Assembly (NCBI RefSeq): GCF_003664325.1
Contig: NZ_RCDA01000005.1
Span: 62,001-126,000, forward strand
Length of the DNA: 64,000 nt
Source of the DNA: Alkalispirillum mobile
GTDB taxonomy: Bacteria > Pseudomonadota > Gammaproteobacteria > Nitrococcales > Halorhodospiraceae
Direction of reading: 5' to 3'
The translations under genes were made by a program, and so were the position numbers. Positions 18,044 to 38,473 of this stretch are shown in pieces; the stretch's first letter is position 1, and each line of letters opens with the position of its first letter. The notes beneath the pieces were generated by a model. That model was not told the origin of the DNA. It was given only the letters and a program-made list of their open reading frames with translations, and ran no database searches.

Positions 18044-19075
18044 CTAGCGGTGCAGCCAGCAGGCCGAGTAATGCCCCCGCCGGGGCTCAAAATCGTGCGG
18101 CTCCTCCACGTCGCAGAGCCCCGCCATGGCCTGCGGGCAGCGCGGATGAAAGCGACACCCTGGCGGCGGGTTGGCCAGGCTGGGGGCCTCGCCGGCGGGC
18201 ACCGGGCGCTCTTCATCGGCGTTGGCCGGGTCGGGGTCGGCGATGGCGTTGAGCAGGGCCTGGGTATAGGGGTGCTGGGGGTGGTCCAGCAGTTCATCCA
18301 CCGGCGCCTGTTCCACCACGCGGCCGCCATACATCACGAAGATGCGCTCGGCGAAGTGGCGCACCGTGGAGAGGTCGTGGGTAATGAAGGCCAGGGTGAG
18401 GCCGAGTTCGGTCTGCACCTGTCGCAACAGGCGCAGGATCTCCACCCGCACCGAGGCATCCAGCATGGAGACCGGCTCGTCGGCGATCACGAGGGCCGGC
18501 CCCAGCACCAGCGCCCGGGCGATCACCACCCGCTGCTGCTGGCCACCACTGAGCTGGTGGGGAAACTTGTGCAGATAGGTTTCCGGAGGCGATAGACGCA
18601 CCTCGTCGAGCACCGCCCGCACCCGCCGGCGACGCTCACCCCGGTCGCGCACCCCGTGCACGATCAGCGGCTCCTCCAGGATGCGGCCCACGTCCATGAA
18701 GGGGGGCAGCGCCCCATAAGGATCCTGCTGCACGTAGCCCACCCGCGCCCGGTAGGCCTTGAGCGCCCGCTTGTCCAACGACTCCAGGTGCTGCCCCTCG
18801 AACACCACCTCGCCCCCGGTGGGCCGGTGCAGGCCCAGCAGGGTGCGCGCCAGCGAGCTCTTGCCACAGCCGCTCTCACCCACGAAGGCCACCGCCTCGC
18901 CCCGGCGCAGGGCAAAGCTGACGCCATCCACCGCGCGCACGTGGCCGACACGCAGAAACCCCCACTGGCGAAGCTCGAACCAGGTGTGCAGGTCACGGGC
19001 CTCCAACAGGGTGTCGCCGGGGGCGGGTGCTGCCCGCTCGGCCGGTTCCTGCGCGGGGATGGCAACTCGACTCAT
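18044..19075 (-). CDS. Opp-type ABC transporter ATP-binding protein (OppF/DppF-like)
   Basis: A 343-aa ATPase, second of the pair in the peptide/oligosaccharide importer. Walker A is G-E-S-G-C-G-K-S, signature L-S-G-G-Q-Q-Q-R, Walker B I-A-D-E-P-V-S-M-L-D. A C-terminal oligo/HPY extension has cysteines (C-R-F-H-P-R-C-P) that may bind an iron-sulfur cluster or zinc, as in DppD-type ATPases. The ATG at 19075 overlaps the stop of the upstream ATPase gene (ATGA). The permeases and binding protein are 5-9 kb away, beyond an opposing gene. Confidence 0.93.
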   Translation of the reverse strand: MSRVAIPAQEPAERAAPAPGDTLLEARDLHTWFELRQWGFLRVGHVRAVDGVSFALRRGEAVAFVGESGCGKSSLARTLLGLHRPTGGEVVFEGQHLESLDKRALKAYRARVGYVQQDPYGALPPFMDVGRILEEPLIVHGVRDRGERRRRVRAVLDEVRLSPPETYLHKFPHQLSGGQQQRVVIARALVLGPALVIADEPVSMLDASVRVEILRLLRQVQTELGLTLAFITHDLSTVRHFAERIFVMYGGRVVEQAPVDELLDHPQHPYTQALLNAIADPDPANADEERPVPAGEAPSLANPPPGCRFHPRCPQAMAGLCDVEEPHDFEPRRGHYSACWLHR

Positions 19076-20037
19076 CGGTGGCCTCCATACAGCCAGCACC
19101 GTACGTGGTGACGTTCGCCCACCCGCTGCGGTGGCGGATTCTCGGCACAACGTGCAAAGCGGTGGGGGCAGCGATCCGCGTAGCGACACCCTTGAGGGGG
19201 CGAGAGCAGGTCCGGTGGCTGACCGGGGATATGCTGCGGCGCCTCGGCCTGGTAAAGCCGGGGCACGCTGGCCATCAGCATCTGGGAATAGGGGTGGGCC
19301 GGCTCGGTGAAGAAGCGGCGGGCGTCGGCGTACTCCGCCACTTGGCCGGCGTACATCAGGGCGACCCGGTCGGCCAGCTCACTGGAGGTGGCCACATCGT
19401 GGGTGATCAGGATGAAGCTGGTGGCCTGCTCCCGCTTGATGCGCTTGAGCACGTTCATGATGCTCGCCTGGGTCAGCACGTCCAGCGCCGAGGTGGGCTC
19501 GTCCAGGATGATGAGATCCGGCTCGGTGATCAGCGCCATGGCCAGCACCGCCCGCTGGCGCATGCCGCCGGAGAGCTCGAAGGGGTACCGGGCCAGAAAG
19601 TCGCTGGAGACCCCCACCCGCTGGAAGACCTCGGCGGCCTTGTCCAGGGCCTTCGCCCGCGACCAGCCCCGGTGCACCACCAGTGGCTCGGCCACCTGCT
19701 CCCCCACCCGTACCACCGGGTTGAGGGCATTCATGGCCGCCTGCATCACCATGGAGATGCGCAGCCACTGCACCTCCCGCCGGAAACGCTCCACAGGCAG
19801 ATCCATCACGTCGGTATCGCCCAGCCACACCCGCCCGGTATGACTGTGCACGTTGCGCGGCAGGATGCGCAGCAGCGCCTTGGCCAGGGAACTCTTGCCG
19901 CAGCCGCTCTCCCCCAGCACCACCACCGCCTCGCCCCGGCGCAGGTCGAAACTGACCCCGTCCACCGCCTGCACCACGCCGCGCTCGGTGCGATAGGCCA
20001 GCCGGAGGTCTTCCACGCGCAGCAGGGTCTCGGTCAT
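19072..20037 (-). CDS. Opp-type ABC transporter ATP-binding protein (OppD/DppD-like)
   Basis: A 321-aa ATPase. Walker A is G-E-S-G-C-G-K-S, signature L-S-G-G-M-R-Q-R, Walker B I-I-L-D-E-P-T-S-A-L-D, and a Cys-rich C-terminal extension includes C-R-Y-A-D-R-C-P-H-R-F. The Q-loop reads V-M-Q-A-A-M-N-A-L-N-P rather than the usual F-Q-D-P-M-x-x-L-N-P. That version, and the A-T-S-S-E-L-A-D-R segment, recall ATPases of archaeal and Thermotogae Opp-family transporters that carry oligosaccharides (from memory, not searched). Start at 20037; divergent from the oxidoreductase gene. Confidence 0.93.
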   Translation of the reverse strand: MTETLLRVEDLRLAYRTERGVVQAVDGVSFDLRRGEAVVVLGESGCGKSSLAKALLRILPRNVHSHTGRVWLGDTDVMDLPVERFRREVQWLRISMVMQAAMNALNPVVRVGEQVAEPLVVHRGWSRAKALDKAAEVFQRVGVSSDFLARYPFELSGGMRQRAVLAMALITEPDLIILDEPTSALDVLTQASIMNVLKRIKREQATSFILITHDVATSSELADRVALMYAGQVAEYADARRFFTEPAHPYSQMLMASVPRLYQAEAPQHIPGQPPDLLSPPQGCRYADRCPHRFARCAENPPPQRVGERHHVRCWLYGGHR

Positions 20038-20197
20038 GGACGACGACGGTCCTCTATAGGCCAGACAAGTGGATGGGTCGGCGACCAAGGCCAAAGCCCA
20101 CGGCTCGCCCTACCCGAGTGACCAGACTATACCAGCGGCAGAACAGGCCAAAGCCATCTAGTCTTAACGGACAAATCCGAGAAGAGGGATGGCGCCC

Positions 20198-23065
20198 ATG
20201 ACGCCCGAGCTGCGCAGCCTGATCGATGCCCTGGAACCGGACCTCCCCGCCAACCGCCTCATCCACGACCCCCTCAAGACCCTGGCCTACGGCACCGACG
20301 CCAGCTTCTACCGCCTGATCCCGCAACTGGTGGTGCAGGTGGAGAGCGAGCGCGAGGTCCGGCGGGTACTCGAGGCCTGCCGCGAACAGCGGATGCCGGT
20401 GACCTTCCGCGCCGCGGGGACCTCCCTTTCCGGCCAGGCGGTCACCGACTCGGTGCTGATCCGCCTGGGCAGGGGCTGGCGACGCAGCCAGGTGCTGGAG
20501 GAGGGGCGCGCCATCCGGCTCGACCCGGGGGTCATCGGCACCTCCGCTAACCAGGTGCTGGCCCCCTACGGCCGCAAGATCGGCCCCGATCCGGCCTCCA
20601 TCGGCGCCTGCCAGATCGGCGGCATCGCCGCCAACAACGCCTCGGGCATGTGCTGCGGCACCGCCCAGAACAGCTACCGCACCGTGCGCGATCTGCGGCT
20701 CATCCTGGCCGACGGCACCCTATTGGACACTGCCGATACGGAGAGCGTGCAGGCCTTCCGGCGGAGCCACGCCGCCCTGCTCGACGCGTTGGAGCGCCTG
20801 GCCCGGGAGACGCGGGCCAACCGGGACCTGGCGGACAAGATCCGCCACAAGTACCGGCTGAAGAACACCGTGGGCTACGCCCTGAACAGCCTGGTGGACT
20901 TCGAGGACGGCATCGAGATCCTCAAGCACCTGATGATCGGCTCCGAAGGCACGCTGGGTTTCATCAGCTCCATCACCTACGACACCGTACCCGACGAGGC
21001 CCTGAAGGCGGCCGCCCTGGTGCTCTTCCCCGACATGGGCGCCGCCTGCCGGGCCACCGCCGCGCTCAAGGGGCTCACCGACACCCCGGTGGCGGCGGTG
21101 GAGCTGATGGACCGGGCGGCCCTGCGCTCGGTGGAAGACACCCCCGGTATGGCCGATACCCTGCAGGGCTTGCCCGACGGCGCGGCCGCCCTGCTGGTGG
21201 ACGTGCGCGCCGAGGACGAGGCCACGCTCACCACCCGCATGGACGCCGCGAGACAGGCCATCGCCGGCGTGGAGACGCTCCGCCCGGTGGACTTCGCCCG
21301 GGACGCCGGCACCTACGCCCTGTACTGGAACATCCGAAAGGGGATGTTCCCGGCGGTGGGCGCGGTGCGCGAGACCGGCACCACGGTGGTGATCGAGGAT
21401 GTGGCCTTCCCCATGGAGCAACTGGAGGCAGGGGTCAGCGAACTGATCGATATGCTCCACCGCCACGGCTACGAGAACGCCATCCTCTTCGGCCACGCCC
21501 TGGAGGGCAATCTGCACTTTGTCTTCCCCCAGGGCTTCGAGGCCCCCGGGGAGGTGGAGCGTTACCAGGGAATGATGGACGAGCTGGCACAGCTGGTGGG
21601 GGTGCGCTACGGGGGCTCCCTGAAAGGCGAACACGGCACCGGCCGCAACATGGCCCCCTACGTGGAGCTGGAGTGGGGCAGCGAGGCGTACGCCCTGATG
21701 TGGGCCATCAAGGGGCTGTTCGACCCGGAGGGGCTGCTAAACCCGGAAGTCATCCTCAGCCGCAACGCCACCATCCACCTGGAGAACCTCAAGCCCCTGC
21801 CGGCGGCCGACCCGCTGGTGGACAAGTGCATCGAGTGCGGCTTCTGCGAGCCGGTCTGCCCCTCCCGCGACCTGACCCTCACGCCCCGCCAGCGCATCGT
21901 CATCCGCCGCGAACTGGCGCGGCTGGAGGCCAACGGCGAGGACCCGGCGCGCCAGCGCGCGCTCTGGGAGGCCTACGCCTACGACGGCCTGGAGACCTGC
22001 GCCGCCACCGGCCTGTGCGCCCTGCCCTGCCCGGTCAACATCAACACCGGCGACCTGGTCCGCGCCCTGCGCCACGAGCGCACTGCCCACCAGGCCGGGC
22101 GCGCCCGGTTCGCCGGGAAATACTTCGCCGGGGTCACGGCCACCGCCCGCCTGGCCCTGCGCACCACCGACGGGGTGCGCCGGCTGGTGGGGCCGCACAC
22201 CCTGGGCCGGATCAGCGCCATCACCCGCCGTGTAAGCGGCAACCGCACCCCACACTGGCTGCCCTCTACCCCCACCGCGGCAACACCGGGGATGCTCAAG
22301 CCCTACCAGAACCCGCCGGGCCGCGCGGACGACCGGCCCACCGTGGTCTACCTGCCCTCCTGCGCCACGCGCATGTTCGGCGCCACGCCGCAGGAGCCGG
22401 ACCGGCGTTCCACCCTGGAGCTGACCCTGGCCGTGCTGGAGAAGGCCGGCTTCCGGGTGATCGTCCCAGCGGGAGTGAATGATCACTGCTGCGGGATGGC
22501 CTTCGAGTCCAAGGGCCAGTTCGAGGAGGCCGAGCGTAAGGCCCGGGCCTTGAACGACCTGCTGCTGACCCGTTCCGACCAGGGACGCCACCCGGTGCTC
22601 TGCGACACCAGCCCCTGCACCCTGCGCATGCAAGGGACCCTCAGCAACGCCCTGAGCCTCTACGAACCGGTGCGGTTCCTGCGTGATCATGTGCTGCCCC
22701 GCCTGGAGGTCGAGCGCAAACGCGAGCCCATCGCCCTGCATGTCACCTGCTCCAGCCAGCACCAGGGCCTGCAGGAGTGCTTCCGCGAGGTGGCCGAGGC
22801 CTGCGCCGAGCAGGTGGTGGTGCCCACTGGCATCCAGTGCTGCGGCTTTGCCGGCGACAAGGGCTTCACCACGCCGGAGTTGAACGCCAGCGCGGTGAAC
22901 GGCCTGCGGGAACAGGTCGCCCACTGCACCGCGGGCTACTCCAATTCACGCACCTGCGAGATCGGCCTGACCGCCCACGGCGGCATCCCCTACCGCTCCA
23001 TCTTCGCGCTGGTGGACGAGGTGAGCCGCCCGGCGGCGGTCAGAGGTTCCGCAGCCGCGGGTTGA
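20198..23065 (+). CDS. FAD- and Fe-S-containing D-2-hydroxyacid dehydrogenase (D-lactate dehydrogenase type)
   Basis: A 955-aa respiratory dehydrogenase fusing a GlcD-like FAD unit to a GlcF-like iron-sulfur unit. The FAD-binding PCMH domain spans about residues 30-250 and the FAD-oxidase C-terminal domain about 250-520 with G-E-H-G-T-G. Two [4Fe-4S] motifs follow (C-I-E-C-G-F-C-E-P-V-C-P and C-A-A-T-G-L-C-A-L-P-C-P), then two CCG domains (C-C-G-M and C-C-G-F). It probably oxidises D-lactate or another D-2-hydroxyacid and passes electrons to quinone. The ATG at 20198 has AGAGGG well spaced; the in-frame ATG at 20189 abuts it. Its 3' end overlaps the convergent permease by 26 bp. Confidence 0.9.
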   Translation: MTPELRSLIDALEPDLPANRLIHDPLKTLAYGTDASFYRLIPQLVVQVESEREVRRVLEACREQRMPVTFRAAGTSLSGQAVTDSVLIRLGRGWRRSQVLEEGRAIRLDPGVIGTSANQVLAPYGRKIGPDPASIGACQIGGIAANNASGMCCGTAQNSYRTVRDLRLILADGTLLDTADTESVQAFRRSHAALLDALERLARETRANRDLADKIRHKYRLKNTVGYALNSLVDFEDGIEILKHLMIGSEGTLGFISSITYDTVPDEALKAAALVLFPDMGAACRATAALKGLTDTPVAAVELMDRAALRSVEDTPGMADTLQGLPDGAAALLVDVRAEDEATLTTRMDAARQAIAGVETLRPVDFARDAGTYALYWNIRKGMFPAVGAVRETGTTVVIEDVAFPMEQLEAGVSELIDMLHRHGYENAILFGHALEGNLHFVFPQGFEAPGEVERYQGMMDELAQLVGVRYGGSLKGEHGTGRNMAPYVELEWGSEAYALMWAIKGLFDPEGLLNPEVILSRNATIHLENLKPLPAADPLVDKCIECGFCEPVCPSRDLTLTPRQRIVIRRELARLEANGEDPARQRALWEAYAYDGLETCAATGLCALPCPVNINTGDLVRALRHERTAHQAGRARFAGKYFAGVTATARLALRTTDGVRRLVGPHTLGRISAITRRVSGNRTPHWLPSTPTAATPGMLKPYQNPPGRADDRPTVVYLPSCATRMFGATPQEPDRRSTLELTLAVLEKAGFRVIVPAGVNDHCCGMAFESKGQFEEAERKARALNDLLLTRSDQGRHPVLCDTSPCTLRMQGTLSNALSLYEPVRFLRDHVLPRLEVERKREPIALHVTCSSQHQGLQECFREVAEACAEQVVVPTGIQCCGFAGDKGFTTPELNASAVNGLREQVAHCTAGYSNSRTCEIGLTAHGGIPYRSIFALVDEVSRPAAVRGSAAAG

Positions 23066-24377
23066 ATACCCGGTCCAGGGCGAAGCCGAGCATGGCGAAA
23101 CCCAGCCCGGTGAGCATGAGCAGGAAGGCGGGCGACAGCACCCAGTAGTAGAAGCCGTTGTAGAGCGCGCTCTGCTCCTGGGCGTCGTTCAGCACCTTGC
23201 CCCAGGTGGGCAGCACCGGGTCGCCCAGCCCCAGCACCGCCAGGGAGGCCTCGAGGAAGACGAAGGTGGGGATCAGGGTGACGAAGGTGGGGATGAGCAC
23301 CGGCAGCACCCGGGGCACCATGTAGCGCAGGATGATGCGGGCGTTGCTGGCCCCGTAGGCCTTGGCCGCCTCGATGTAGGGCGCCTCGCGGATGGGCAGC
23401 AGCATGGCCCGGTACATCTTGATGCCGGCACTGAAGATACCCAATGCCACCACCACCCCCAGCATCAACCAGATGCTGGTGGAATAGAGGGTGCCCACCA
23501 TCACCAGGATGGGCAGCATGGGCAGGATCATGTTCACCTCGGTGAGCCGCTGGATCACCGCGTCCACCCAGCCCCGGTACCAGACCCCCATGGCGGCGAT
23601 CACCAGGGTGGTGACGGTGGTGCCCACCGCCGCCAGCAACCCGAAGGCCAGCGCTACCGGGGTGCCCCACATCAGCGCCACCATCAGGTCGCGGCGCTGG
23701 TGGTCGGTGCCGGCCACGCCGTGCACCCGGCCGTAGACCACCAGGTCGGCGTCGAGGCCCGCGTTCTCGTCGAACAGCACCACGTCCAGCAGCAGGGTAT
23801 GGGTGCCCTGGAGGACCGCCGGATCGGGGCGATCGGCGGTCTCCGGGTCCAGCATCAGCCCCACGTGGGGGATATGCCCCAGGCGCCGTTCCAGCGCCCA
23901 GTCCTGGGAGATGGAGATCCGCTCCTCCCGCGCCATTCGCCGGCCCCCCAGCACCTCCTCGCGGCCGTCCGGCGCCTGCCATATCAGGCGCACGAAGGGG
24001 GCCCGGGCCTGCTCCTCCGCGGCCAGGAAGAGGTTGATCTCGCTGGGGAAGGCGCTGCTGTCGTAGTCGAAGCTGAGGGGAATCCGCAGCCGCCGGCCGC
24101 CGGGAAAGGGCTGCTCCTCCGGGGTGACATCGGCGCTGGAGATGATCTGGGTTTCCGGCAGATCGCCCCCCCGCAGCCGGTCCGTCCAGACCGGCGAGGC
24201 GTTCACCGGGTGCATCCGCCACTGCTCACCGCCCCGCCACAGGTCCAGCGCCTGGCTGTAGGGGATCGCCACCACGGTGTAGACCGCCAGCCCGATCAAA
24301 AAGAGGATCAGCCCCGTGCCCAGCACCGCCGAGGGGTAGCGGCGCAGTTGCTTCAGCCCCTCCAACCAACGCCTCAT
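23040..24377 (-). CDS. Opp-type ABC transporter permease (DppC-like) with large extracytoplasmic insertion
   Basis: A 445-aa permease; DppC/OppC proteins are usually about 300. The first membrane helix is at residues 17-40. It is followed by roughly 140-170 mostly soluble residues, then the family motif G-T-D-H-Q-R-R-D (about 223-230) that normally comes soon after the first helix. Five further helices and the EAA-type loop (E-A-A-K-A-Y-G-A-S) follow. The insertion presumably lies in the periplasm next to the binding protein. The ATG at 24377 overlaps the preceding permease stop (ATGA). Confidence 0.9.
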   Translation of the reverse strand: MRRWLEGLKQLRRYPSAVLGTGLILFLIGLAVYTVVAIPYSQALDLWRGGEQWRMHPVNASPVWTDRLRGGDLPETQIISSADVTPEEQPFPGGRRLRIPLSFDYDSSAFPSEINLFLAAEEQARAPFVRLIWQAPDGREEVLGGRRMAREERISISQDWALERRLGHIPHVGLMLDPETADRPDPAVLQGTHTLLLDVVLFDENAGLDADLVVYGRVHGVAGTDHQRRDLMVALMWGTPVALAFGLLAAVGTTVTTLVIAAMGVWYRGWVDAVIQRLTEVNMILPMLPILVMVGTLYSTSIWLMLGVVVALGIFSAGIKMYRAMLLPIREAPYIEAAKAYGASNARIILRYMVPRVLPVLIPTFVTLIPTFVFLEASLAVLGLGDPVLPTWGKVLNDAQEQSALYNGFYYWVLSPAFLLMLTGLGFAMLGFALDRVFNPRLRNL

Positions 24378-25492
24378 CGCCCCCCCTCGATCCGTACCCG
24401 CGGGTCCAGGATCCCGTAGAGGAGATCCAGCAGGAATACGGTGGCCGCCAGCAGGTAGGCGAAGATCACCACGGTGCCGATGATCACCGGCGTATCCCGG
24501 TGGCCGATGGCCTGGAAGACCAGCGTCCCAAGGCCCGGCCAGTTGAAGACCTGCTCCAGGATGATCGCCCCGCTCCACAGCCCTATCAGCATCAGCAGGA
24601 AGCTGGTGACGATGGGCGAGAGGGTGGGCCGCAGGATGTAGCGGCGCTGGATCAGGTGTTCCGGCAGCCCCTTGGCCCGGGCCATCTCCACGTAGTCCTC
24701 GCTGGAGTGGATCAGGAAGAAGGTCCGCCAGGAGTAGATGGAGATGAAGATCTGCGACAGGAACATGGCCACCAGGGGCAGCGCCATGTGCCGCACCACG
24801 CTGGCCAGGTACTCCAGCCGGTCCTCCGGCGGTGGCGCGGTCACCATGCCACCGGAGGGCAGCGCCGGCAGCACGAAGGCGAAGATGAGGATAAGAAACA
24901 TGCCGTAGAACCAGGCGGGCGCCGCCGAACTGGGCGCCAACCCCACCACGCTACGATCGAGCATGCTGCCGTAACGGCGCGACAGGTGCAGCGCCACCCA
25001 GACCGAGACCAGGAAGATCAGCAGGTTGGCCGTGCCGAACAGCAACAGCGTGGCCGGCAGCCGCTCGACGATGATGTCGAAGACCTGGCGCGAGCCGGCA
25101 TCGCTGTGCATCTGCTCCGCCCGGCCCAGGTCCAGCAGCATGGCCCGGTAGAGGTAGTCGAAGCTGCGCAGGATGAAGGGCTGGTCCAGGTTCAACCGCT
25201 CCACCTCCAGGTCCACCTGGCGCTCGATCAGCTCGTTGCGCTCCTCGCTGCTCATGTCCTGGAAGGCCGGGTCGGCGCGCACCGCCTCGGAGATCTCGCC
25301 GCGGATCTGCACCATGCGCAGCTCGTCCACCTGCCCACCCATGTTGGCGATGAGGATGGTCAGGTAGACCCCCGCCAGCACGGTGAGCAGCAGCGCCAGC
25401 AGCCGCTTGCCGGAGAAGATCAGCATGCGCCAGACGTCCCGCCAGCGGCCGCGGGTGCGGGCTGTTGGATCGATACCGGGCAACGCGCTCAT
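24374..25492 (-). CDS. Opp-type ABC transporter permease (DppB-like)
   Basis: A 372-aa permease, somewhat longer than the usual 305-340. The first helix is at about residues 30-50; a charged loop of about 70 residues follows, then five more helices. The EAA loop reads V-E-M-A-R-A-K-G-L-P, and W-P-G-L-G near the C-terminus is typical of DppB. It overlaps the binding-protein gene upstream and the second permease downstream, each by ATGA. Confidence 0.93.
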   Translation of the reverse strand: MSALPGIDPTARTRGRWRDVWRMLIFSGKRLLALLLTVLAGVYLTILIANMGGQVDELRMVQIRGEISEAVRADPAFQDMSSEERNELIERQVDLEVERLNLDQPFILRSFDYLYRAMLLDLGRAEQMHSDAGSRQVFDIIVERLPATLLLFGTANLLIFLVSVWVALHLSRRYGSMLDRSVVGLAPSSAAPAWFYGMFLILIFAFVLPALPSGGMVTAPPPEDRLEYLASVVRHMALPLVAMFLSQIFISIYSWRTFFLIHSSEDYVEMARAKGLPEHLIQRRYILRPTLSPIVTSFLLMLIGLWSGAIILEQVFNWPGLGTLVFQAIGHRDTPVIIGTVVIFAYLLAATVFLLDLLYGILDPRVRIEGGR

Positions 25493-28038
25493 GGCGCCCC
25501 CTCCAGCAGCGGCGGCAACGCCAGCGGCTCCCCGCCGGGGACGGTGGCAAAGGCGTGGGAGGCAAAGGCCGGCAGGGCCACTCGGTCCGTGGTGACGGCG
25601 ATCTCCAGGCTATTGGCCCCCTGCCCCAGGAGCCGCAACACCTCCGCGGTCACCGGCACCTGCCAGCGCGCCTCCCCCAGGTACTGCGCCTCGCCCCGGT
25701 GGGCCAACCGGTTATCGCCGTCGAAGAGCAGGAACTGCACCTGCTGGATAGCCTCGCGGGGGTAGGGCTCGCCCTCGAAAGTGACGGCCAGCTCGAAGGC
25801 CACCGACTCCCCCTGGGCCACCACCACCGGCCCGTCCAGGGTCAACTCGGGGATCTGCGGGTCGGCGAACTGCAGCCACTTGTTGGCCGGATCGGCGAAA
25901 TCGGTAAAGCGGCGCAGTACCACGCTGCCCTCCACCGGATGCACCCCGTGCAGGTAGAAGGGCCCGTCGCCCACGTAGAAATGGCCCCGCTCTGCGTACC
26001 AGTCCGCCAGCGCCTGATAGCGGTCGGCGGCCTCATCGGGGGTCAGGTACTCGCCCAGCACCGGCGCGTAGGGCAGGTGGTTGGTCTGCTGCAGGCGCTC
26101 CAGCTGGCGGCGCAGCACCGGCAGGCTGGGGCCGGAGACCAGGTTGAGCCAGTCGACCCGCAGCCGGTCGGCCTTGTTGGAGGAGAAGGCCAGGCTCCCC
26201 TCCCGCTCGGCCATGATCCCCAGGGCCAGCATGTGCCAGGGGGTGGTGCCCGGCGCACGGGCCGCGACGATGGCCTCCGCGTCCGGGAAGATCTGGTCGC
26301 TGTAGACATCGATGACCAGCGGGTCCTCCGAGACGATGTGCCAGCCGCGGAAGTGGCGGCGGAAGGCCTCGTAGCTGGGGACGTGGGCCACGTCGTAGAG
26401 GGGGCTGTCCTCGTCGGCGCGCTCGAAGGTGAGGATCCAGGGCAGCACCACGTCGGCCAGCGAGGCCCGGGTGCCGTCGTGGAAGCGGCGCTGCAGGTAA
26501 TCGTCCTCGTAGACCAGGCGCACCCGGGTGCGGGCCGTGACGCCGTCCGGCTCCGCCTCGGCGGCGGTGAGGAACCGCTGCTCGGCGCTGTCCCAGTCCA
26601 CCCAGGCGGCCTCCGGCACGCGGACCGTCTCGACGGTGTCCACCTGCACCCAGTCCAGGGTGCTGTTCACCGGGGTGTCGGCCTCCACGGTGACCTCGGC
26701 GCGCGCCAGGCGCTGGGGGTGGTGCAACCCGGTAAACGGGTCGGGCAGCACCGGCGGGTCACTGAGCGCCCGGGTGATCATCCGGTCGAAGATCCAGTTG
26801 CTGCCGGCAATGGGGTTCCAGGGCTCGGTGATAATCTCCGGGGTGCCGATGACCACCCGACCACCCAGCCGGCCCTCATAGCCCAGAGTGTAGGGCCAGA
26901 GGGCGGAACCGGACGTACCGCCGGCCAGGTCCCCGGCCAGGTTCACGTCCCGCGCCCGGGGCCAGACGTTGAGCTGATCCACCAACCAGACCCGGGCCGA
27001 ATCCAGCATGGCCAGGTCCAGGGCCTGGCGCATCAGGTCCTGGCGCTCGTCCCAGTTCTGGTAGTCGCGGCGTTGCAGCCGGTCGGATATCTCGTCGAAG
27101 GTCGGGTCCGGCTCGTAGGCCTGCCACAGCGGCTCGGCACGCCCCCGGGGCGTGTAGTAGTAGCTGAAGTTCTCCGCCTGATCGCGCTGGATCAGGGTCG
27201 AGACCCAGGCCCCGGTATAGATGTGCCAGCGCCCGCCCGCGGGGTCTCCGGCGATCCAGATCCGCGAGGCCTCCTCGGCGGTGCGGTAGAGCCGTTCCAC
27301 CTGGAAGCCCTCCGCCTCCAGCAGATTGCCCAGGTAGTCGCCGATGCGGCGGCGCTCATCGTCGTTGCGGATGAGCAGGGTAAGCCGGACCGGCTCGCCC
27401 TCGTAGTACCACTGATCCTCCCGCCATTCCGCGCCCAGCCGCCCCATCTCGTGGCGGATCACCTCCCGGGCGCGGGCCGGGTCGTGGCCGTAGCGCAGTT
27501 CCAGCTCGCGGGCGGTCTCCGCCAGGCGGGCGTAGTCGGGGAAGGCGGTGCTCAGCGGCAGGTACCGGGGCACTGCCAGCCCGCCGTAGATCTCCTCGGC
27601 GATGTGGCGGCGGTTGACCAGCCAGTTCAGCGCCTCGCGCATGGCGGGCACGGCGAAGGGGTTCAGCCGGCCATCGCTGAACTCCGGGCCATAGGGGTTC
27701 AGGGTCAGCTCCACGGCGGTGCCGTAGGAGAGGTCGTGGGCGGTGGCGGCGGAGTCGCGCAGGCGGTGGAAGAGCGCCGGGCGGGTGATGCCCTGGGCGA
27801 AGACCTGGTGGCTACCGCGCTCAATCAGCCCGGTGACCTGCCCCACGTCCCGCTGTTCCGTGAAGACCACCTCGTCCACCAGGGCGCCGGTGCGCGCCTC
27901 CAGGGCGGCATCGTCCGCGGGCTGGCCCCGGTCCACGCCGCCCCCCTGCTCCCCGGCCCCACCGGCAAGCCACAGCACCAGTGCCAGCAGCGCCAGCAGC
28001 GCTAACAGGGGAAGCAGGCCTCGTCTGAATGGGGGCAA
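25489..28038 (-). CDS. Opp-type ABC transporter substrate-binding protein, oversized (family 5)
   Basis: An 849-aa extracytoplasmic binding protein, well above the usual 500-600. Residues 7-26 form a hydrophobic N-terminal anchor or signal with no lipobox cysteine. The family 5 fold is recognisable in the L-N-P-F-A-V-P-A-M-R-E-A-L-N region (about 120-140) and repeated W-x-P/Y-T-G-A-W-type segments. The last ~90 residues look like a separate beta-rich domain. Ligand unknown: peptide or oligosaccharide. It is first in the importer operon and its stop overlaps the permease start. Confidence 0.85.
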   Translation of the reverse strand: MPPFRRGLLPLLALLALLALVLWLAGGAGEQGGGVDRGQPADDAALEARTGALVDEVVFTEQRDVGQVTGLIERGSHQVFAQGITRPALFHRLRDSAATAHDLSYGTAVELTLNPYGPEFSDGRLNPFAVPAMREALNWLVNRRHIAEEIYGGLAVPRYLPLSTAFPDYARLAETARELELRYGHDPARAREVIRHEMGRLGAEWREDQWYYEGEPVRLTLLIRNDDERRRIGDYLGNLLEAEGFQVERLYRTAEEASRIWIAGDPAGGRWHIYTGAWVSTLIQRDQAENFSYYYTPRGRAEPLWQAYEPDPTFDEISDRLQRRDYQNWDERQDLMRQALDLAMLDSARVWLVDQLNVWPRARDVNLAGDLAGGTSGSALWPYTLGYEGRLGGRVVIGTPEIITEPWNPIAGSNWIFDRMITRALSDPPVLPDPFTGLHHPQRLARAEVTVEADTPVNSTLDWVQVDTVETVRVPEAAWVDWDSAEQRFLTAAEAEPDGVTARTRVRLVYEDDYLQRRFHDGTRASLADVVLPWILTFERADEDSPLYDVAHVPSYEAFRRHFRGWHIVSEDPLVIDVYSDQIFPDAEAIVAARAPGTTPWHMLALGIMAEREGSLAFSSNKADRLRVDWLNLVSGPSLPVLRRQLERLQQTNHLPYAPVLGEYLTPDEAADRYQALADWYAERGHFYVGDGPFYLHGVHPVEGSVVLRRFTDFADPANKWLQFADPQIPELTLDGPVVVAQGESVAFELAVTFEGEPYPREAIQQVQFLLFDGDNRLAHRGEAQYLGEARWQVPVTAEVLRLLGQGANSLEIAVTTDRVALPAFASHAFATVPGGEPLALPPLLEGAP

Positions 28039-28188: not shown

Positions 28189-29409
28189 TCAGCAGCTCGG
28201 CGCCTGGCGCGGCTCCGCCCGCTCGCCGAAGAAGAAGGGCCGCAGCTTGACCCCTGCCATGTTGCCCAGGAAGGCGAACACCAGCCAGACCCAGCCATGC
28301 AGGCTGCCCGAGGCGATGCCGCCGAAGTAGGCCCCGATGTTGCAGCCGAAGGCCAGGCGGGCCCCGTAACCCAGCAGCAGGCCACCGATGACCGCCGCCA
28401 TCAACGGCCGGAACGGGATCCGCAGGCTCGGGGCGAAACGCCCGGCCAGCGCCGCGGCCAGCAGTGCCCCCAGCACGATGCCGAAGTTCATCACGGAGGT
28501 GATGTCGGCGAACACGCTGGTCTGCAGGGCGGCGGCATTGGCCTCGCTCTGCCAGTAGGCCCACTGGGTCACGTCGATGTTGATCAGCTCGAAGAACTTG
28601 GCCCCCCAGAGGGCAAAGGCGGCGGTCACGCCCCAGGGCCGGCCGGCCAGCACCAGGGTGATGAAGTTCAGCACCGCCAGGGCCACCGCTCCCCAGATCA
28701 GCGGCCAGGGCCCGCGCAGGAACCGACGCCAGCCCTGGTTGGCGCTGGTCTTGGGTGCCTCCAGGCTGCCGTGCCGACGCCGCTCCAGCAGCACGGTCAG
28801 GCCGTAAATGGTGGCGAACAGCGCGAAACTGAGCGCGATACCGCCAGCCACCCCCAGGCCCTCGACCACGGACACGGCTTCAAACGCCGGCTGTTGAAAC
28901 CACCAGTCCACGTGGTGCGTGGCGATGACCGACCCGAGGATGAAGCCGATCAGGGTGACCACCATGCGCACGTTGCCGCCCCCGGCGGTGAACAGCGTGC
29001 CGGAGGCGCACCCGCCGCCGAGCTGCATACCGATACCGAACAGGAAGGAGCCCACCACCACCGATACACCAATGGGGAAGACAAAGCCGCTCACCTCATT
29101 TCCGAAGGCGCTCCCCGTGTGCAGTACCGGGAAAAACAGCACCACCGCCAGGGCCAGCATGACCATCTGCGCCCGCAGGCCCTGCCCGCGCCGCTCCGTG
29201 ATGAACACTCGCCATGCGCCGGTGAAGCCGAAGGCCGCGTGATAGAGCACAACACCCAGTGCGCCACCCACCAGGAAGAGCGTCGCCTGGGTCAGGTCAA
29301 TGGCCTGCCCCAGGTAGAGGGTCCCGACCACCAGCAGGGCGAGGGCGAGCCAGCCCGCCGGGTTCATCGGGCCGACCGTTTTCGGGATTGCGGAGGAGAC
29401 GGCAGACAT
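28189..29409 (-). CDS. YeeE/YedE-family sulfur transport protein
   Basis: A 406-aa inner-membrane protein with about ten helices, built of two related halves. The family signatures each carry a cysteine: G-G-G-C-A-S-G-T-L-F-T-A-G-G-G in the first half and F-G-C-N-I-G-A-Y-F-G-G in the second. YeeE (TsuA) imports thiosulfate through such cysteines; other members carry sulfite or selenium compounds, so substrate is uncertain. The start at 29409 is set by TGGAG 6 nt upstream. An AT-rich dyad lies about 100 bp before it. Confidence 0.92.
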   Translation of the reverse strand: MSAVSSAIPKTVGPMNPAGWLALALLVVGTLYLGQAIDLTQATLFLVGGALGVVLYHAAFGFTGAWRVFITERRGQGLRAQMVMLALAVVLFFPVLHTGSAFGNEVSGFVFPIGVSVVVGSFLFGIGMQLGGGCASGTLFTAGGGNVRMVVTLIGFILGSVIATHHVDWWFQQPAFEAVSVVEGLGVAGGIALSFALFATIYGLTVLLERRRHGSLEAPKTSANQGWRRFLRGPWPLIWGAVALAVLNFITLVLAGRPWGVTAAFALWGAKFFELINIDVTQWAYWQSEANAAALQTSVFADITSVMNFGIVLGALLAAALAGRFAPSLRIPFRPLMAAVIGGLLLGYGARLAFGCNIGAYFGGIASGSLHGWVWLVFAFLGNMAGVKLRPFFFGERAEPRQAPSC

Positions 29410-29496
29410 GTGGGGCTCCAGAAGTGTTGGGATCACGTGCGATCGTTGATGGCCGGCATACTAATCGGAGCGCACCACTCATGTGAAAGGATTCTA

Positions 29497-32581: not shown

Positions 32582-35500
32582 ATGTCGCGCGACCGCATCC
32601 GGGTACGGGGTGCCCGCCAGAACAACCTGCGCGGGTTCGACCTGGACATCCCCCTGGGCGAGTTGGTGGTGGTCACCGGGGTCTCCGGCTCCGGCAAGTC
32701 CTCGCTGGCCTTCGATACCGTCTACGCCGAAGGCCAGCGGCGCTACGTGGAGACCTTCTCCCCCTACGCGCGGCAGTTCCTGGACCGCATGGACCGCCCG
32801 GCGGTGGACCGCATCGACGGCGTGCTGCCCGCCATCGCCATCGACCAGACCAACCCGGTGCGCACCTCCCGCTCCACCGTGGGCACCATGACGGAGCTGA
32901 ACGACCACCTGAAACTGCTCTTCGCCCGCACCGCGCAACTCTACTGCGGCGGCTGCGGCAAGCGGGTCCAGCGGGACACGCCCGAAGGCGTGGCCGCCCG
33001 CCTGCTGGCCAGCCACGGCGGAGAGCGGGCCATGGTCACCGCCCGGGTGGCCATCCCGAAGAAATCCAGCGCCGCGACCCTGCGTGAGCTGCTGACCGGC
33101 CAGGGCTTCACCCGCATCCACGCCGAGACCAGGACCCACCTGGAGGTGGTCACCGACCGCATCCGCCTGGTCGACGACCGCCGCGACCGGCTGGTGGAGG
33201 CGCTGGAGTCGGGCCTGAAACTGGGTCAGGGCCACGTCCAGGTGCGCCTGCTCGACGAGCAGCGCGAGCCCGGCGAGCCCCTGCGCTACTCCGCCGACCT
33301 CCACTGCGCCGACTGCGACATCCACTACGAGGAACCCACCCCCGGCCTCTTCTCCTTCAACTCCCCCGTGGGCGCCTGCGAGACCTGCCGGGGCTTTGGC
33401 CGGGTCATGGGCATCGACTACCGGCTGGTGATCCCGGACGAATCCCTCAGCCTGGAACAGGGCGCCATCAAGCCCTTCCAGTCCGGCCGCTCCGCCGAGT
33501 GCCAGGACGACCTGCTCTTCCACGCCCGTCGCCGGGGCGTGGCCACCGACATCCCCTTCCGGGACCTGCCCGAGGACGACCGGCGGTGGATCATCGAGGG
33601 GGAAGGCAAGTTCAACGGTCGCAAGTGGTACGGCATCGACGGCTACTTCAACTACCTGGAGCGCAAGAGCTACAAGATGCACGTGCGGGTGCTGCTGAGC
33701 CGCTACCGCAGCTACGACCCCTGCCCGGATTGCCACGGCGCCCGCCTCAAGCCCGCCGCCCTGCTCTGGCGCATCGGCAGCCACGAGGACAGCGACGCCG
33801 TCATCGACCGCGCCGCCCGGCAGCGGCCCCACGGCGCCACCCTGCCCGAGCACGCCTTCCACGGCCTGCCCGGGCTGCACCTGCACGACCTGCTGACCCT
33901 GCCGTTGGACCGCTGCGCCCGATTCTTCGAGCAAATCCATTTGCCCGCTCCCCTGGACGAGGCGGCGGAGATCCTGCTGGAGGGCATCCACAACCGGCTC
34001 GCCTACCTCAACACCGTCGGCCTGGGTTATCTCACCCTGGACCGCCAGTCCCGCACCCTCTCCGGCGGCGAAGTCCAGCGCATCAACCTCACCACCGCCC
34101 TGGGCACCGCCCTGGTCAATACCCTTTTCGTGCTGGACGAGCCCTCCATCGGCCTCCACCCCCGGGACATCGACCGCATCGTTACGGTGATGCACCGGCT
34201 GCGTGACGCCGGCAACTCCCTGCTCGTCGTGGAGCACGACCCGGCCGTCATGCAGGCCGCCGACCGCATCATCGACATCGGCCCCGGCCCGGGCGAGCGC
34301 GGCGGCCAGGTCATCTTCAACGGCACCCCGGCCGAACTGCTGCGCACTGAAGACTCCCTCACCGCGGACTACCTCACCGGAAGGAAACGGGTGGTCGAGG
34401 GCGTGCTTACAGGCGGAGCCGAGCACGCGGACGCCGACGGGTCTGGTGCGTGTTCCGGGCGGAACCGTAGCGGAGCGCGGGTGGAGGGCAGCACCTCGGA
34501 CCATGAAGGGTCTGGAGGTGTTGGCGGCCGGGTTCGTAGTGGAGCGCGGACGCAGGACGGAGAAGGCCCGCAGGGTGGCCGCATGGATCCGGAAACCCCA
34601 AGAATCACCATCCAGGGCGCCACCGAACACAACCTGAAAGCCCTGACCGTGGACATCCCCGTCCATCCGGGCCTGGTCTGCCTCACCGGCGTCTCCGGCT
34701 CCGGCAAATCCACCCTCATGCGCGACATACTCTACAACGAGCTGTCCCGCTGCAAAGGCCACCCCGGCGACCCGTCCGGCGCCTTCGAGGCCCTCACCGG
34801 CGACGAACACATCGACGACGTGGTGCTGGTGGACCAGTCCCCCATCGGCAAGACCACCCGCTCCAACCCCGCCAGCTACACCGGCGCCTTCGAGCCGATC
34901 CGCAAGGCCTACGCCGCCGAACCGCTGGCCAAGGAGCGCAAATACACCCCCGGTGTGTTCAGCTTCAACTCCGGCAAGGGCCGCTGCCCCACCTGCGGCG
35001 GCAACGGCTTCGAGCACGTGGAGATGCAATTCCTCTCCGACGTGTACCTGCGCTGTGCCGACTGCGACGGCCGCCGCTACCGCCCGGAGATCCTGGAGAT
35101 CCAGCGCCTGCCCGACCCCGGCGCCGACCTGGGTACCACCGCCGATGGCCCCAAGAACATCGCGGAGGTCCTCGACCTGACCGTGGACCAGGCCGCCGAA
35201 TTCTTCCGCGAAACCCCGGCGGTACTGAAGAGCCTCGAACCCCTGCAGGCGGTGGGGCTCGGCTACCTCAAACTGGGCCAACCGGTACCCACCCTCTCCG
35301 GCGGCGAGGCCCAGCGCCTGAAGCTGGCCGGCCACCTGGCCAAGACCAGCGGCCGGCGCAAGCAGCGCCAGCGCCTCCTGTTCCTCTTCGATGAACCCAC
35401 CACCGGGCTGCACTTTCAGGACGTGGCGGTGCTCCTGAGTGCCTTCCGCCGGCTACAGGACGAGGGCCACGCCCTGCTGGTCATCGAACATAACCTGGAC

Positions 35501-38473
35501 GTGATGCTGGCGGCGGACTGGCTCATCGACCTGGGGCCGGAAGGGGGCGACCAGGGGGGCCGACTGCTCTGCACCGGCACGCCGCGGCAGGTCATGGAGC
35601 GGGCGGAGGTGTCCCATACCGGGCGGGCACTGGCCGACTACGTCCGGGAACTGGCGCGGCTGCGGACCGGTGCGGGCGCCTCCCCTGGCGCAGCGACAGA
35701 AGCCATCGGGGCTTCGACCGGGCAGACCGGGGACACACCCGGATCGGGGGCACAGCAGTACATCGATATCCACCATGCGCGGGAACACAACCTGAAGGGC
35801 GTGGACATCCGTATCCCCCGCAACCGGCTCACCGTCATCACCGGCCTGTCCGGCTCCGGGAAGTCCACCGTGGCCTTCGACATCCTCTTCAACGAGGGCC
35901 AACGCCGCTACCTGGAATCGCTCAACGCCTACGCCCGCCAGTTCGTGCAACCGGCGGCACGCCCCGACGTGGACAGCGTCGAGGGCATCCCGCCCACGGT
36001 GGCCATCGAACAGCGCACCAGCCGGGGCGGGCGCAAGAGCACCGTCGCCACGCTGACCGAAGTACACCACTTCCTGCGCCTGCTCTACGTCCGCCTGGGC
36101 ACCTGGCACTGCCCCGCCTGCCGGGTACCGATCCAGGCCCAGACCGCCGAGGCCATCCACGCCCAACTGCTGCGCGAGCACCGGGGCGAAACCCTGCACC
36201 TGCTGGCCCCCATGGTCAGCGGGCGCAAGGGTATCTACAAAGAGCTGGCCCGCTGGGCCGCGGGCAAGGGCTACGCCAGCCTGCACGTGGACGGCGCCTT
36301 TTTGCCCACCGCGGACTGGCCCAAACTGGATCGCTACCGGGAACACGACATCGACCTGCCCGTGGCGGACCTGCGCATTGAACCGGAAAATGCCCAGCCC
36401 CTGCGCCGGGCCATCGAGCTGGCCCTGGAACACGGCAAGGGCGTACTGCGCATCCGCACCCCCGACGGCGCCCTGACCACCCTCTCCACCGAGCGCGCCT
36501 GTCCGAGCTGCCAGCGCAGCTTCGACGAACCGGACCCGCGCCTTTTCTCCTACAACAGCCCCCACGGCTGGTGCCACACCTGTTACGGCACCGGCGAAGT
36601 GCTGGAGGGCTTCAGTGACGAGGATACCGGCAAGGAACACCACTGGCGGGAGACAGAGAGCGACGAAGACGCCCTCCCCGTCCCCTGCCCCACCTGCGAC
36701 GGCGCCCGCCTCAACGCCGAGGCCCGCGCCGTCACCTTCCAGGACCGCACCCTGCCCGGGCTCTCCGCCCTCACCGTTCACGAGGCCCGGGCCTGGTTCG
36801 CAGACCTGATGGCCAGCCGGCAACTCACCGATAACCCACTGGAAGCCGACCCACCGAAACCCGAAGCACCGGATCATGGCGCTCAAGGGCTTATGGCCCT
36901 CACCCACCGCGAGGCCACCATCGCCCGCGACGTCCTCCCGGAGATCCACAACCGGCTGCGCTTTCTGGAAGACGTGGGCCTCGGCTACCTGAGCCTCGAC
37001 CGCGCCGCCCCCACCCTCTCTGGCGGCGAAGCCCAGCGCATCCGCCTGGCCGCCCAACTGGGCTCCAACCTGCAGGGCGTCTGCTACGTCATGGACGAAC
37101 CCACCATCGGCCTCCACCCCCGGGACAACCGCCTGCTGCTGGACGTCCTCGGCCGCCTCGAAGGCAAGGGCAACACCATCGTCGTCGTCGAACACGACGA
37201 AGACACCATCCGCCGCGCCGAACACGTCATCGACCTGGGCCCCGGCGCCGGCATCAACGGCGGGCGCGTCGTTGCCGCCGGCACCGTCGACGAATTGCTG
37301 GACCATCCCAGCTCCATTACCGGCCGTTACCTGCGCCAGCCCCTGCCCCACCCGCTCCTGGGCGAACGGCGCCCCGTGCAGTTGCCGGACGCCCCCGGCG
37401 CAGCCGTGCCGCCACCACCCGGGAACGCCCCGGAGGCCCCACACGCCACCCTCGCCCTGCGCTCACCCACCCTGCACAACCTCAAGGGCGAGGACCTGCA
37501 CCTGCCCCTGGGCCGCCTGGTGGTGGTCACCGGCGTCTCCGGGTCCGGCAAATCCTCCCTGATCCGCGGCGTGCTCAAGCCCGCGCTGAAACGGCAGTTG
37601 GCTCACCGCCGCCAGGACACCGCGCCGGACCTGCCCCACTGCAGCGGGCTGGAGGGTTGGCAGACCATCGACCGGGTGCTGGAGGTAGACCAAACCCCCA
37701 TCGGCAAAACCCCGCGCTCCTGCCCCGCCACCTATATCGGCTTCTGGGACGACATCCGCAAGCTCTACGCCGGCACCCAGGAGGCGAGTCTGCGCGGCTA
37801 CGGCCCGGGCCGCTTCTCCTTCAACACCAAGGACGGCCGCTGCCCGGACTGCGACGGTCAGGGCGTGCGCCGGGTGGAGATGAACTTTCTTCCCGACGTG
37901 GCCGTCCCCTGCGAGACCTGCCACGGGCTGCGGTTCACCCGCGAGACCCTGGCCGTGGAGTGGAAGGGCCGGCACATCGGCGATGTGCTGAACATGAGCG
38001 TCGAGGAGGCGGAGGCGTTCTTCGCCGCCCAGCCCCGCATCCACCACCCCCTGACCCTGCTCAACGCCGTGGGGCTTGGCTACCTCACCCTCGGCCAGCC
38101 CAGTCCCACGCTATCCGGCGGCGAGGCCCAGCGCATCAAGCTGGTCACCGAACTGGCCAAGGCGCGCCCCGACCTGCGCGCCCAGCGCACCCCACACACC
38201 CTCTACGTGCTGGACGAACCCACCGTGGGCCTGCACATGGCCGACGTGGAACGGCTCATCGAGGCCCTGCAACGGCTGGTGGACGCCGGCCACACCGTGG
38301 TAGTCATCGAACACAACCTGGACCTGATCGCCGAGGCGGACTGGGTGGTGGACATCGGCCCCGAGGGGGGCGATGCCGGAGGCCGAATCGTTGCCTGCGG
38401 GGCGCCGGAGCAGGTGGCGGCGAGCGCGACCGAGACGGGCCGGTACTTGGGGGAGTTGCTGGGGCGGGGCTGA
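32582..38473 (+). CDS. uvrA: Tandem (double-length) UvrA excinuclease subunit
   Basis: A 1963-aa protein, twice the length of E. coli UvrA (940), made of two complete UvrA modules in one frame. Four ABC sites are intact: Walker A at about residues 33-41, 703, 1087 and 1651; signature L-S-G-G-E at about 493, 906, 1480 and 1844. Zinc-finger pairs (C-x2-C) recur in both halves. UvrA finds bulky lesions and loads UvrB; normally two subunits dimerise, so this chain could fold as a covalent dimer. The UvrB-binding region is shortened in module 1 and fuller in module 2. Gly/Ser-rich linkers lie at about 600-670 and 1020-1058. Tandem UvrA is known from chlamydiae. Confidence 0.95.
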   Translation: MSRDRIRVRGARQNNLRGFDLDIPLGELVVVTGVSGSGKSSLAFDTVYAEGQRRYVETFSPYARQFLDRMDRPAVDRIDGVLPAIAIDQTNPVRTSRSTVGTMTELNDHLKLLFARTAQLYCGGCGKRVQRDTPEGVAARLLASHGGERAMVTARVAIPKKSSAATLRELLTGQGFTRIHAETRTHLEVVTDRIRLVDDRRDRLVEALESGLKLGQGHVQVRLLDEQREPGEPLRYSADLHCADCDIHYEEPTPGLFSFNSPVGACETCRGFGRVMGIDYRLVIPDESLSLEQGAIKPFQSGRSAECQDDLLFHARRRGVATDIPFRDLPEDDRRWIIEGEGKFNGRKWYGIDGYFNYLERKSYKMHVRVLLSRYRSYDPCPDCHGARLKPAALLWRIGSHEDSDAVIDRAARQRPHGATLPEHAFHGLPGLHLHDLLTLPLDRCARFFEQIHLPAPLDEAAEILLEGIHNRLAYLNTVGLGYLTLDRQSRTLSGGEVQRINLTTALGTALVNTLFVLDEPSIGLHPRDIDRIVTVMHRLRDAGNSLLVVEHDPAVMQAADRIIDIGPGPGERGGQVIFNGTPAELLRTEDSLTADYLTGRKRVVEGVLTGGAEHADADGSGACSGRNRSGARVEGSTSDHEGSGGVGGRVRSGARTQDGEGPQGGRMDPETPRITIQGATEHNLKALTVDIPVHPGLVCLTGVSGSGKSTLMRDILYNELSRCKGHPGDPSGAFEALTGDEHIDDVVLVDQSPIGKTTRSNPASYTGAFEPIRKAYAAEPLAKERKYTPGVFSFNSGKGRCPTCGGNGFEHVEMQFLSDVYLRCADCDGRRYRPEILEIQRLPDPGADLGTTADGPKNIAEVLDLTVDQAAEFFRETPAVLKSLEPLQAVGLGYLKLGQPVPTLSGGEAQRLKLAGHLAKTSGRRKQRQRLLFLFDEPTTGLHFQDVAVLLSAFRRLQDEGHALLVIEHNLDVMLAADWLIDLGPEGGDQGGRLLCTGTPRQVMERAEVSHTGRALADYVRELARLRTGAGASPGAATEAIGASTGQTGDTPGSGAQQYIDIHHAREHNLKGVDIRIPRNRLTVITGLSGSGKSTVAFDILFNEGQRRYLESLNAYARQFVQPAARPDVDSVEGIPPTVAIEQRTSRGGRKSTVATLTEVHHFLRLLYVRLGTWHCPACRVPIQAQTAEAIHAQLLREHRGETLHLLAPMVSGRKGIYKELARWAAGKGYASLHVDGAFLPTADWPKLDRYREHDIDLPVADLRIEPENAQPLRRAIELALEHGKGVLRIRTPDGALTTLSTERACPSCQRSFDEPDPRLFSYNSPHGWCHTCYGTGEVLEGFSDEDTGKEHHWRETESDEDALPVPCPTCDGARLNAEARAVTFQDRTLPGLSALTVHEARAWFADLMASRQLTDNPLEADPPKPEAPDHGAQGLMALTHREATIARDVLPEIHNRLRFLEDVGLGYLSLDRAAPTLSGGEAQRIRLAAQLGSNLQGVCYVMDEPTIGLHPRDNRLLLDVLGRLEGKGNTIVVVEHDEDTIRRAEHVIDLGPGAGINGGRVVAAGTVDELLDHPSSITGRYLRQPLPHPLLGERRPVQLPDAPGAAVPPPPGNAPEAPHATLALRSPTLHNLKGEDLHLPLGRLVVVTGVSGSGKSSLIRGVLKPALKRQLAHRRQDTAPDLPHCSGLEGWQTIDRVLEVDQTPIGKTPRSCPATYIGFWDDIRKLYAGTQEASLRGYGPGRFSFNTKDGRCPDCDGQGVRRVEMNFLPDVAVPCETCHGLRFTRETLAVEWKGRHIGDVLNMSVEEAEAFFAAQPRIHHPLTLLNAVGLGYLTLGQPSPTLSGGEAQRIKLVTELAKARPDLRAQRTPHTLYVLDEPTVGLHMADVERLIEALQRLVDAGHTVVVIEHNLDLIAEADWVVDIGPEGGDAGGRIVACGAPEQVAASATETGRYLGELLGRG
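34438..34555 (+). repeat. Imperfect 69-bp tandem duplication inside uvrA
   Basis: Two copies begin at 34438 and 34507. Each contains GGGTCTGG near its start and a GTAG-C/T-GGAGCGCGG core near position 30. They encode related 23-residue units (G-S-G-A-C-S-G-R-N-R-S-G-A-R and G-S-G-G-V-G-G-R-V-R-S-G-A-R) in the linker before the second ATPase domain of module 1. The reading frame is kept. The 3' part of the second copy has diverged. Confidence 0.6.

Follow-up and report, generated by a model that had tools for sequence, protein, structure and literature searches.

Family-5 substrate-binding proteins (SBPs; PF00496), which fall in cluster C of the scheme that separates binding proteins into clusters such as B and C, belong, in bacteria as in archaea, to the most common receptors for nutrients, and in Opp systems the general mechanism is ligand capture, docking and ATP-driven transport. 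Described systems of this type include DppBCDF of Escherichia coli and OppABCD/DppABCD of Mycobacterium tuberculosis (8z1w, 8j5t and 8wdb, by electron cryomicroscopy), whose SBPs we take to be of ordinary segment order, and OppA of Thermococcus kodakarensis (7fi3), which is of ordinary order. A natural circular permutation in the binding protein of an ATP-binding cassette (ABC) importer is known from TpMglB-2 (Tp0684) of Treponema pallidum, termed 'cluster Bc / type Ic', a membrane-tethered protein found in several lineages, for which a link between permutation and tethering is suggested by its authors (PMC4990184). In the present work a window of 64,000 nucleotides from Alkalispirillum mobile (NZ_RCDA01000005.1, positions 62,001-126,000; all coordinates without a locus handle are those of the window) was analysed, in which the interval 18044-28038 carries, on the minus strand, five genes for an SBP, two permeases and two ATPases. 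Since two BPD_transp_1 (PF00528) permeases and two ABC_tran/oligo_HPY ATPases lie in one cluster, the sequence identifies the set as an Opp/Dpp-type ABC importer. Its SBP is, with a probability of about 0.85, a natural circular permutation of the family-5 fold.

The SBP gene (25489-28038) starts with TTG, preceded by GGAGGTG, and encodes 849 residues, the unusual length already given in a preliminary description of this DNA. The only Pfam family found on the protein at E 1 was PF00496 (41.6 bits, cut-off 32.4), with model positions 194-351 placed at residues 101-283, near the N-terminus. The native segment order of family 5 is not kept, the two halves being swapped, and the protein is classed as a circularly permuted variant of the family, not as an ordinary member. 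Residues ~55-391 (26866-27876), equivalent by fold and sequence match to 7fi3_A to the C-terminal half of ordinary family-5 SBPs, come first, and residues 392-721 (25876-26865), equivalent by a profile match to 7fi3_A 63-307 to the N-terminal half, come second. In a search of the Protein Data Bank with the single sequence, up to E 1, the archaeal OppA 7fi3 was the sole protein matched, in reversed order: SBP residues 467-720 on 7fi3_A 64-312, and residues 113-297 on 389-585. A profile of 18 relatives repeated this swapped two-block match (E 8.7e-42; 63.0 and 86.5 bits), gave a weak swapped pair on 1uqw, and touched three further solved SBPs briefly, in their middle parts. When the halves were re-ordered in silico, a single 7fi3 block of 526 query residues resulted (86-611 on 64-585, E 6.7e-33). 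Moreover, a profile of the second half matched the N-terminal halves of solved SBPs, namely 7fi3_A 63-307 (E 2.1e-31) and Bacillus OppA 8are_A 144-221 (E 5e-4), and PF00496 was detected in 13 of 18 second halves scanned singly. In a Chloroflexota relative (G059) both pieces lay in one frame, PF00496 positions 148-361 preceding 28-147, the second piece (E 3e-4) being below the cut-off.

The comparison was also made from the side of ordinary proteins. A profile built from 13 ordinary SBPs found a single block in most permuted open reading frames (ORFs) and two or more blocks in 7 genomes, all of them swapped, with weak second blocks (4.5-11 bits), and it found native order in ordinary SBPs, among them 10 long matches outside the profile (L051, L098 and L102-L109, with L105 as two blocks); a long ordinary protein of L056/L065 gave two short blocks in native order. 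In a profile-profile rotation scan against the same 13 proteins the score rose from 101 unrotated to 131 with cuts at residues 360-650, while cuts at 80, 113 and 150 scored below the unrotated value. The aligned stretch was extended by the residues preceding 735, which rotation had placed next to the start; this reference did not align the lobe I half in its entirety, so that the scan supports the junction and by itself does not prove the whole permutation. The only other PF00496 match of the source genome at E 0.001 lies on contig C7 (16784-17992, L001), as a 607-residue frame of ordinary order.

Some results weigh against the permutation: the structural aligners used are sequential, so that the second half of the SBP was matched by sequence and not superposed; the C-terminal half of the window protein itself had no Pfam match at E 0.1; and solved SBPs other than 7fi3 were matched weakly. 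The last point, together with the great variation in length of family-5 SBPs, might suggest an ordinary Opp importer with a large SBP bearing long insertions, in which the swapped order would be an artefact of repeats, lobe similarity, a frameshift or assembly. This is highly improbable, because each half matches its own counterpart region of 7fi3 and the order is the same, without exception, in 73 distinct genes. These were obtained as 78 rows collected at 600 or more matched profile positions, five genes being present in duplicate; the window order is followed colinearly by all 78, 77 span both halves, and one gene comes from a complete genome record (L011). Furthermore, the permuted start stands directly behind export signals, judged by pattern and by eye: a lipobox in 22/22 rows of the main Chloroflexota clade, a signal resembling those for twin-arginine translocation (Tat) or looking cleavable in a divergent clade, and a hydrophobic segment in most gammaproteobacteria. 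In the window protein the export signal or membrane anchor with its linker takes up residues ~1-54 (27877-28038), with a hydrophobic segment that is also present in most relatives. The constancy of order in 73 ORFs and the position of these signals argue that the swapped order did not arise in assembly.

As regards structure, the AlphaFold2 (AF2) model of the SBP reached a mean predicted local distance difference test score (pLDDT) of 82.7 and a predicted template modelling score (pTM) of 0.78. Residues 45-390 of the model fit the C-terminal halves of family-5 structures in both structure comparisons made, superposing on 7fi3_A 332-755 (Z 24.9, 336 residues, 3.3 Å) and on OppA 8are (Z 22.2, 294 residues, 2.8 Å), and the fold matches listed (50 in each comparison) are, judging by their names, presumably all family-5 proteins. 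The point of opening falls between the strands of 'GPFYLHG...VVLRRF' (694-710) and a strand at residues 56-61, and the new chain ends map near 7fi3 residues ~312-332. By the domain boundaries of classical OppA this position is inside lobe I, so that the two covalent connections from lobe to lobe would remain. The ancestral chain would have been opened in a lobe I loop that follows the 'GPY...' strands and precedes the adjoining strand-helix-strand unit, and its native ends joined at about residue 391/392; an export signal stands ahead of the new N-terminus, and most members have a beta-domain behind the new C-terminus. The same arrangement could have come from the fusion of two incomplete, separately derived family-5 halves, which would look alike, and adjoining copies of permuted SBP genes do occur, in genomes G319 and G355. 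Nevertheless, one solved protein, 7fi3, is the best relative of either half, at similar strength, and the halves are complementary over one fold that becomes a single block once rotated, which makes a fusion improbable, though less so than an artefact, and favours permutation of one ancestor.

The added C-terminal domain (residues ~726-838, 25525-25863) is predicted to be all-beta, with AF2 strands at 731-833 and pLDDT blocks of 82-93 over 731-830. It is dispensable, since in three SBPs of G319 the match stops at profile position 719-723 (one of the three was checked). Two of the G319 genes, at L123 232-2484 and 3601-5691, are tandem permuted SBP genes ahead of one permease set, and lack this domain.

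Compared with the described systems, T. kodakarensis OppA is the closest to the window SBP by sequence and by fold, both halves matching it significantly, but the window protein has its halves swapped and carries the additional beta-domain. With TpMglB-2 the common feature is the circular permutation, while the fold class is probably another one: TpMglB-2 has a cluster B sugar-binding fold with glucose as ligand (PMC4990184), and the window SBP belongs to family 5 and cluster C, which would make it an independent case of permutation. In open-licence literature, by titles and the beginnings of abstracts, no natural circular permutation was found for family-5 SBPs, TpMglB-2 being the one natural case among ABC-importer SBPs. 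By these sources, permutation in ABC-importer SBPs was already known for cluster B, and the family-5/cluster C case appears to be new, an earlier mention elsewhere being possible. The finding is of importance for annotation, as family-5 annotation assumes one segment order, which a conserved permuted family breaks, and Pfam detects only one half of the window SBP. In addition, the family offers a natural experiment on whether there is a coupling between the order of the chain, the position of the tether and docking on the permease, which has also been asked for the permuted cluster B protein (PMC4990184).

The permuted ORFs belong mainly to Chloroflexota and halophilic Gammaproteobacteria. Short matches resembling ordinary SBPs were excluded from the counts, which are lower bounds, as at most 3 candidates per genome were scored for the phyla of G059 and G062, at most 2 for the phylum of the window and at most 5 for that of G061. 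A permuted SBP was found in at least 29 of 301 sampled genomes of the phylum of G059, whose record bears the title Chloroflexi bacterium (matches in 50 genomes, 21 of them by short stretches only), in at least 3/398 of the window's phylum, source included (11 matched, 8 short), in at least 3/247 of the phylum of G062 (8 matched, 5 short) and in at least 2/194 of that of G061 (2 matched, none short), as well as in 27 of 59 near relatives, again counting the source genome. A pattern scan for close relatives of the window SBP that covered archaea and Thermotogae returned 26 loci, none titled archaeal or Thermotogae, and a tblastn search of a plasmid collection gave no match.

The second peculiarity of the importer is found in one permease. 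Next to the OppB/DppB-like permease (24374-25492; PF00528 E 4.7e-28), the OppC/DppC-like permease (23040-24377, 445 residues from its ATG; PF00528 E 2.2e-16, and family alignment) contains an insert of ~160 residues (~61-222, 23712-24197), in line with the 140-170 residues of the preliminary description; the NCBIfam Opp4C model does not resume, with its position 59, until ORF residue 289. Permease chains of DppBCDF and OppABCD/DppABCD match the core of this protein, but the best-matching ones have 273-289 residues modelled against 445, and since the alignments comprise 213-231 columns the whole insert cannot be matched in them. The insert, whose structure the same description had proposed to predict, was modelled by AF2 as an ordered beta-sandwich (pLDDT blocks of 74-96 over residues 71-210). 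A Foldseek search with the permease model returned permeases, the beta part giving weak beta-sandwich matches at E 5e-3 and worse. In the sample of 301 genomes mentioned above, an insert profile of 14 rows matched 27, namely 26 of the 29 with a permuted SBP and 1 of the 272 without (Fisher p 4e-33, kinship uncorrected). The three permuted-SBP genomes without a match belong to the divergent clade, in which the permeases of L124 and L127 have 215-217 residues where that of the window has 187, and that of L125 aligns with window residues 9-444 over 464 codons. The one genome with an insert match and no permuted SBP, G169, encodes an insert-bearing permease that is of the divergent type, and the 19 kb examined there yielded no SBP.

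An ordered insert that co-occurs with the permuted SBP is what a docking role would require, and the beta-sandwich may well contact the re-ordered SBP, at odds slightly short of even. Against such a role it must be said that the argument is one of co-occurrence and that the model of the whole permease is poor (pLDDT 65.7, pTM 0.44). The exported SBP would bind its ligand between the lobes and dock on the OppB/OppC-like pair, uptake being driven by the OppD/OppF-like ATPases. The pair of permuted SBP and insert-bearing OppC-like permease could also serve as a marker for tracing a horizontally moved importer. Homology of the insert to the C-terminal domain of the SBP was considered and rejected (hhalign probability 0.6 percent), and so was homology to the longer insert of the ordinary Opp system that neighbours the permuted one in L118 and L122 (0.9 percent). 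The neighbouring permease of L118 (584 residues) thus bears an insert unrelated by sequence, so that permease inserts as such are not unique to the permuted system. In five Chloroflexota genomes, each of which also has a permuted system, OppB-like and insert-bearing OppC-like permeases are fused in one chain of 897-973 residues (L150:6662-9577, L151:7703-10396, L152:8334-11150, L153:7280-10201 and L154:8267-10969), and the three that were scanned each showed PF00528 in two stretches. Within the 19 kb examined around the fused genes no binding protein was found, and the only ABC ATPases found are distant.

A tree was calculated from 58 of the 78 SBP rows, the other 20 being duplicates, near-copies or short rows; it comes from a quick search with support by the Shimodaira-Hasegawa-like approximate likelihood ratio test (SH-aLRT) only, many rows are of uneven letter make-up, and the labels of several metagenome-assembled genomes (MAGs) may be binning errors. 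Proteins labelled Gammaproteobacteria and those of soda-lake MAGs (Rhodospirillales being the title of one) fall into a single set with good support, together with three rows of the Planctomycetes-Verrucomicrobia-Chlamydiae (PVC) group/phylum of G061 and two of the phylum of G062. This set adjoins two Chloroflexota proteins and one labelled Deltaproteobacteria and lies inside a tree made up mainly of Chloroflexota, with the root placed on the divergent clade, a pattern that fits horizontal spread out of Chloroflexota. A broader scheme can tentatively be put forward, as one possibility of several: the permuted cluster C class might have a single origin, probably in Chloroflexota or earlier, and a new mode of docking might have come with it, in which the tether moved from the native N-terminus to the lobe I loop and beta-domains were added to the SBP and to the OppC-like permease. 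The dedicated SBP-permease pair might then have been handed on, all five genes together, to halophilic Gammaproteobacteria and to a small number of further lineages.

Concerning the substrate, the preliminary description had likened the system to Opp-family importers of oligosaccharides in archaea and Thermotogae, and considered that it might not transport peptides. The system is unusual and its nearest solved SBP, 7fi3, is archaeal, but a sugar substrate is not supported: 7fi3 was solved, according to the title of its entry, with an endogenous pentapeptide, and by fold the Thermotoga proteins that bind sugars stand below it (Z about 21, compared with 24.9). Of two findings that had been named in advance as speaking against the proposal, closest relatives that are peptide importers of ordinary build and a disordered insert, the first applies to the closest solved relative, a peptide binder of ordinary order, and the second does not, as the insert is not predicted to be disordered. 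By analogy with this relative, oligopeptides are the likeliest cargo, by a modest preference. The ligand clues conflict, since an M28 peptidase is found beside the importer in one Halomonas locus (L006) and a neopullulanase-like amylase in one Chloroflexota locus (L112), to which BNR-repeat proteins have to be added. Import of oligosaccharides would agree with that amylase, with the BNR-repeat proteins of six divergent loci, and with the presence among the fold matches, which include peptide, metal and sugar binders alike, of the sugar-binding family-5 proteins TM1223/TM1226 and of chitin-oligosaccharide binders. Nevertheless, it is unlikely, as the closest match by sequence and fold is the peptide-bound archaeal OppA, there is no sugar gene in the window operon, and most other scanned neighbours look unrelated. 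The 15 neighbouring proteins scanned with Pfam comprised UvrD (three loci), HSP70, DsbD, a methyltransferase, a radical SAM protein, an S49 peptidase, two without a family, the amylase, the M28 peptidase and BNR-repeat proteins (three divergent-clade loci), five further proteins of the same scans being permeases or an SBP; among the neighbours no common context was found outside the divergent clade. Gene context was rejected as evidence either way on oligosaccharide specificity. The divergent-clade loci, 6/6, encode directly upstream of the permuted SBP a sialidase-like protein with BNR repeats whose N-terminus suggests export (L124:5221-7407, L125:4893-7160, L127:5033-7252, and matching places in L126, L128 and L129).

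The five-gene set is conserved across the compared loci, and the order SBP-permB-permC-OppD-OppF on one strand is kept in most relatives with all five genes, the SBP gene being inverted relative to the other four in L019. Both ATPases carry ABC_tran and oligo_HPY, and their starts are chosen ATGs and hence approximate: about 19072-20037 for the OppD-like one (listed ORF to 20094; most relatives align from residue ~15-24) and about 18044-19075 for the OppF-like one (listed ORF to 19189), whose ATG at 19075 overlaps the OppD stop. With this ATG and that at 24377 taken as starts, stop and start overlap at the SBP/permB, permB/permC and OppD/OppF junctions. The Q-loop VMQAAMNALNP pointed out in the preliminary description is present at residue 116 of the 340-residue OppD ORF (19717-19749). 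The form VMQA[AS]MNALNPV occurs in 15/15 gammaproteobacterial or soda-lake loci scanned; among 18 Chloroflexota loci PQA[AV]MN[AS]LNPV was found in 10, SQAAMNSLNPV in one (L123) and VQGAMASLNPV in one (L124), the search pattern catching no such form in the remaining 6. The usual form, MIFQ[DE]PMTSLNPV, occurs in four loci in the Opp ATPases that belong to a second system close by. Of 12 Chloroflexota loci examined, 7 (L113, L115, L116, L118, L119, L120 and L122) have such a second Opp system, which comprises OppD/OppF-like genes and in several cases ordinary-order SBP pieces, next to the permuted one.

In the source genome the importer operon is split by a gene for an oxidase linked to flavin adenine dinucleotide (FAD) on the plus strand (20189-23065), which separates the second permease from the ATPases. 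This oxidase is GlcD/YdiJ-like, with iron-sulphur domains, and was not found beside the importer in any of 48 loci and 20 Chloroflexota loci searched. Upstream of the SBP gene, a YedE/TsuA-like sulphur transport protein (PF04143) is encoded at 28189-29436 on the minus strand, and at 32582-38473 on the plus strand there is an ORF of 1963 residues that by eye resembles two UvrA excinuclease chains fused head to tail.

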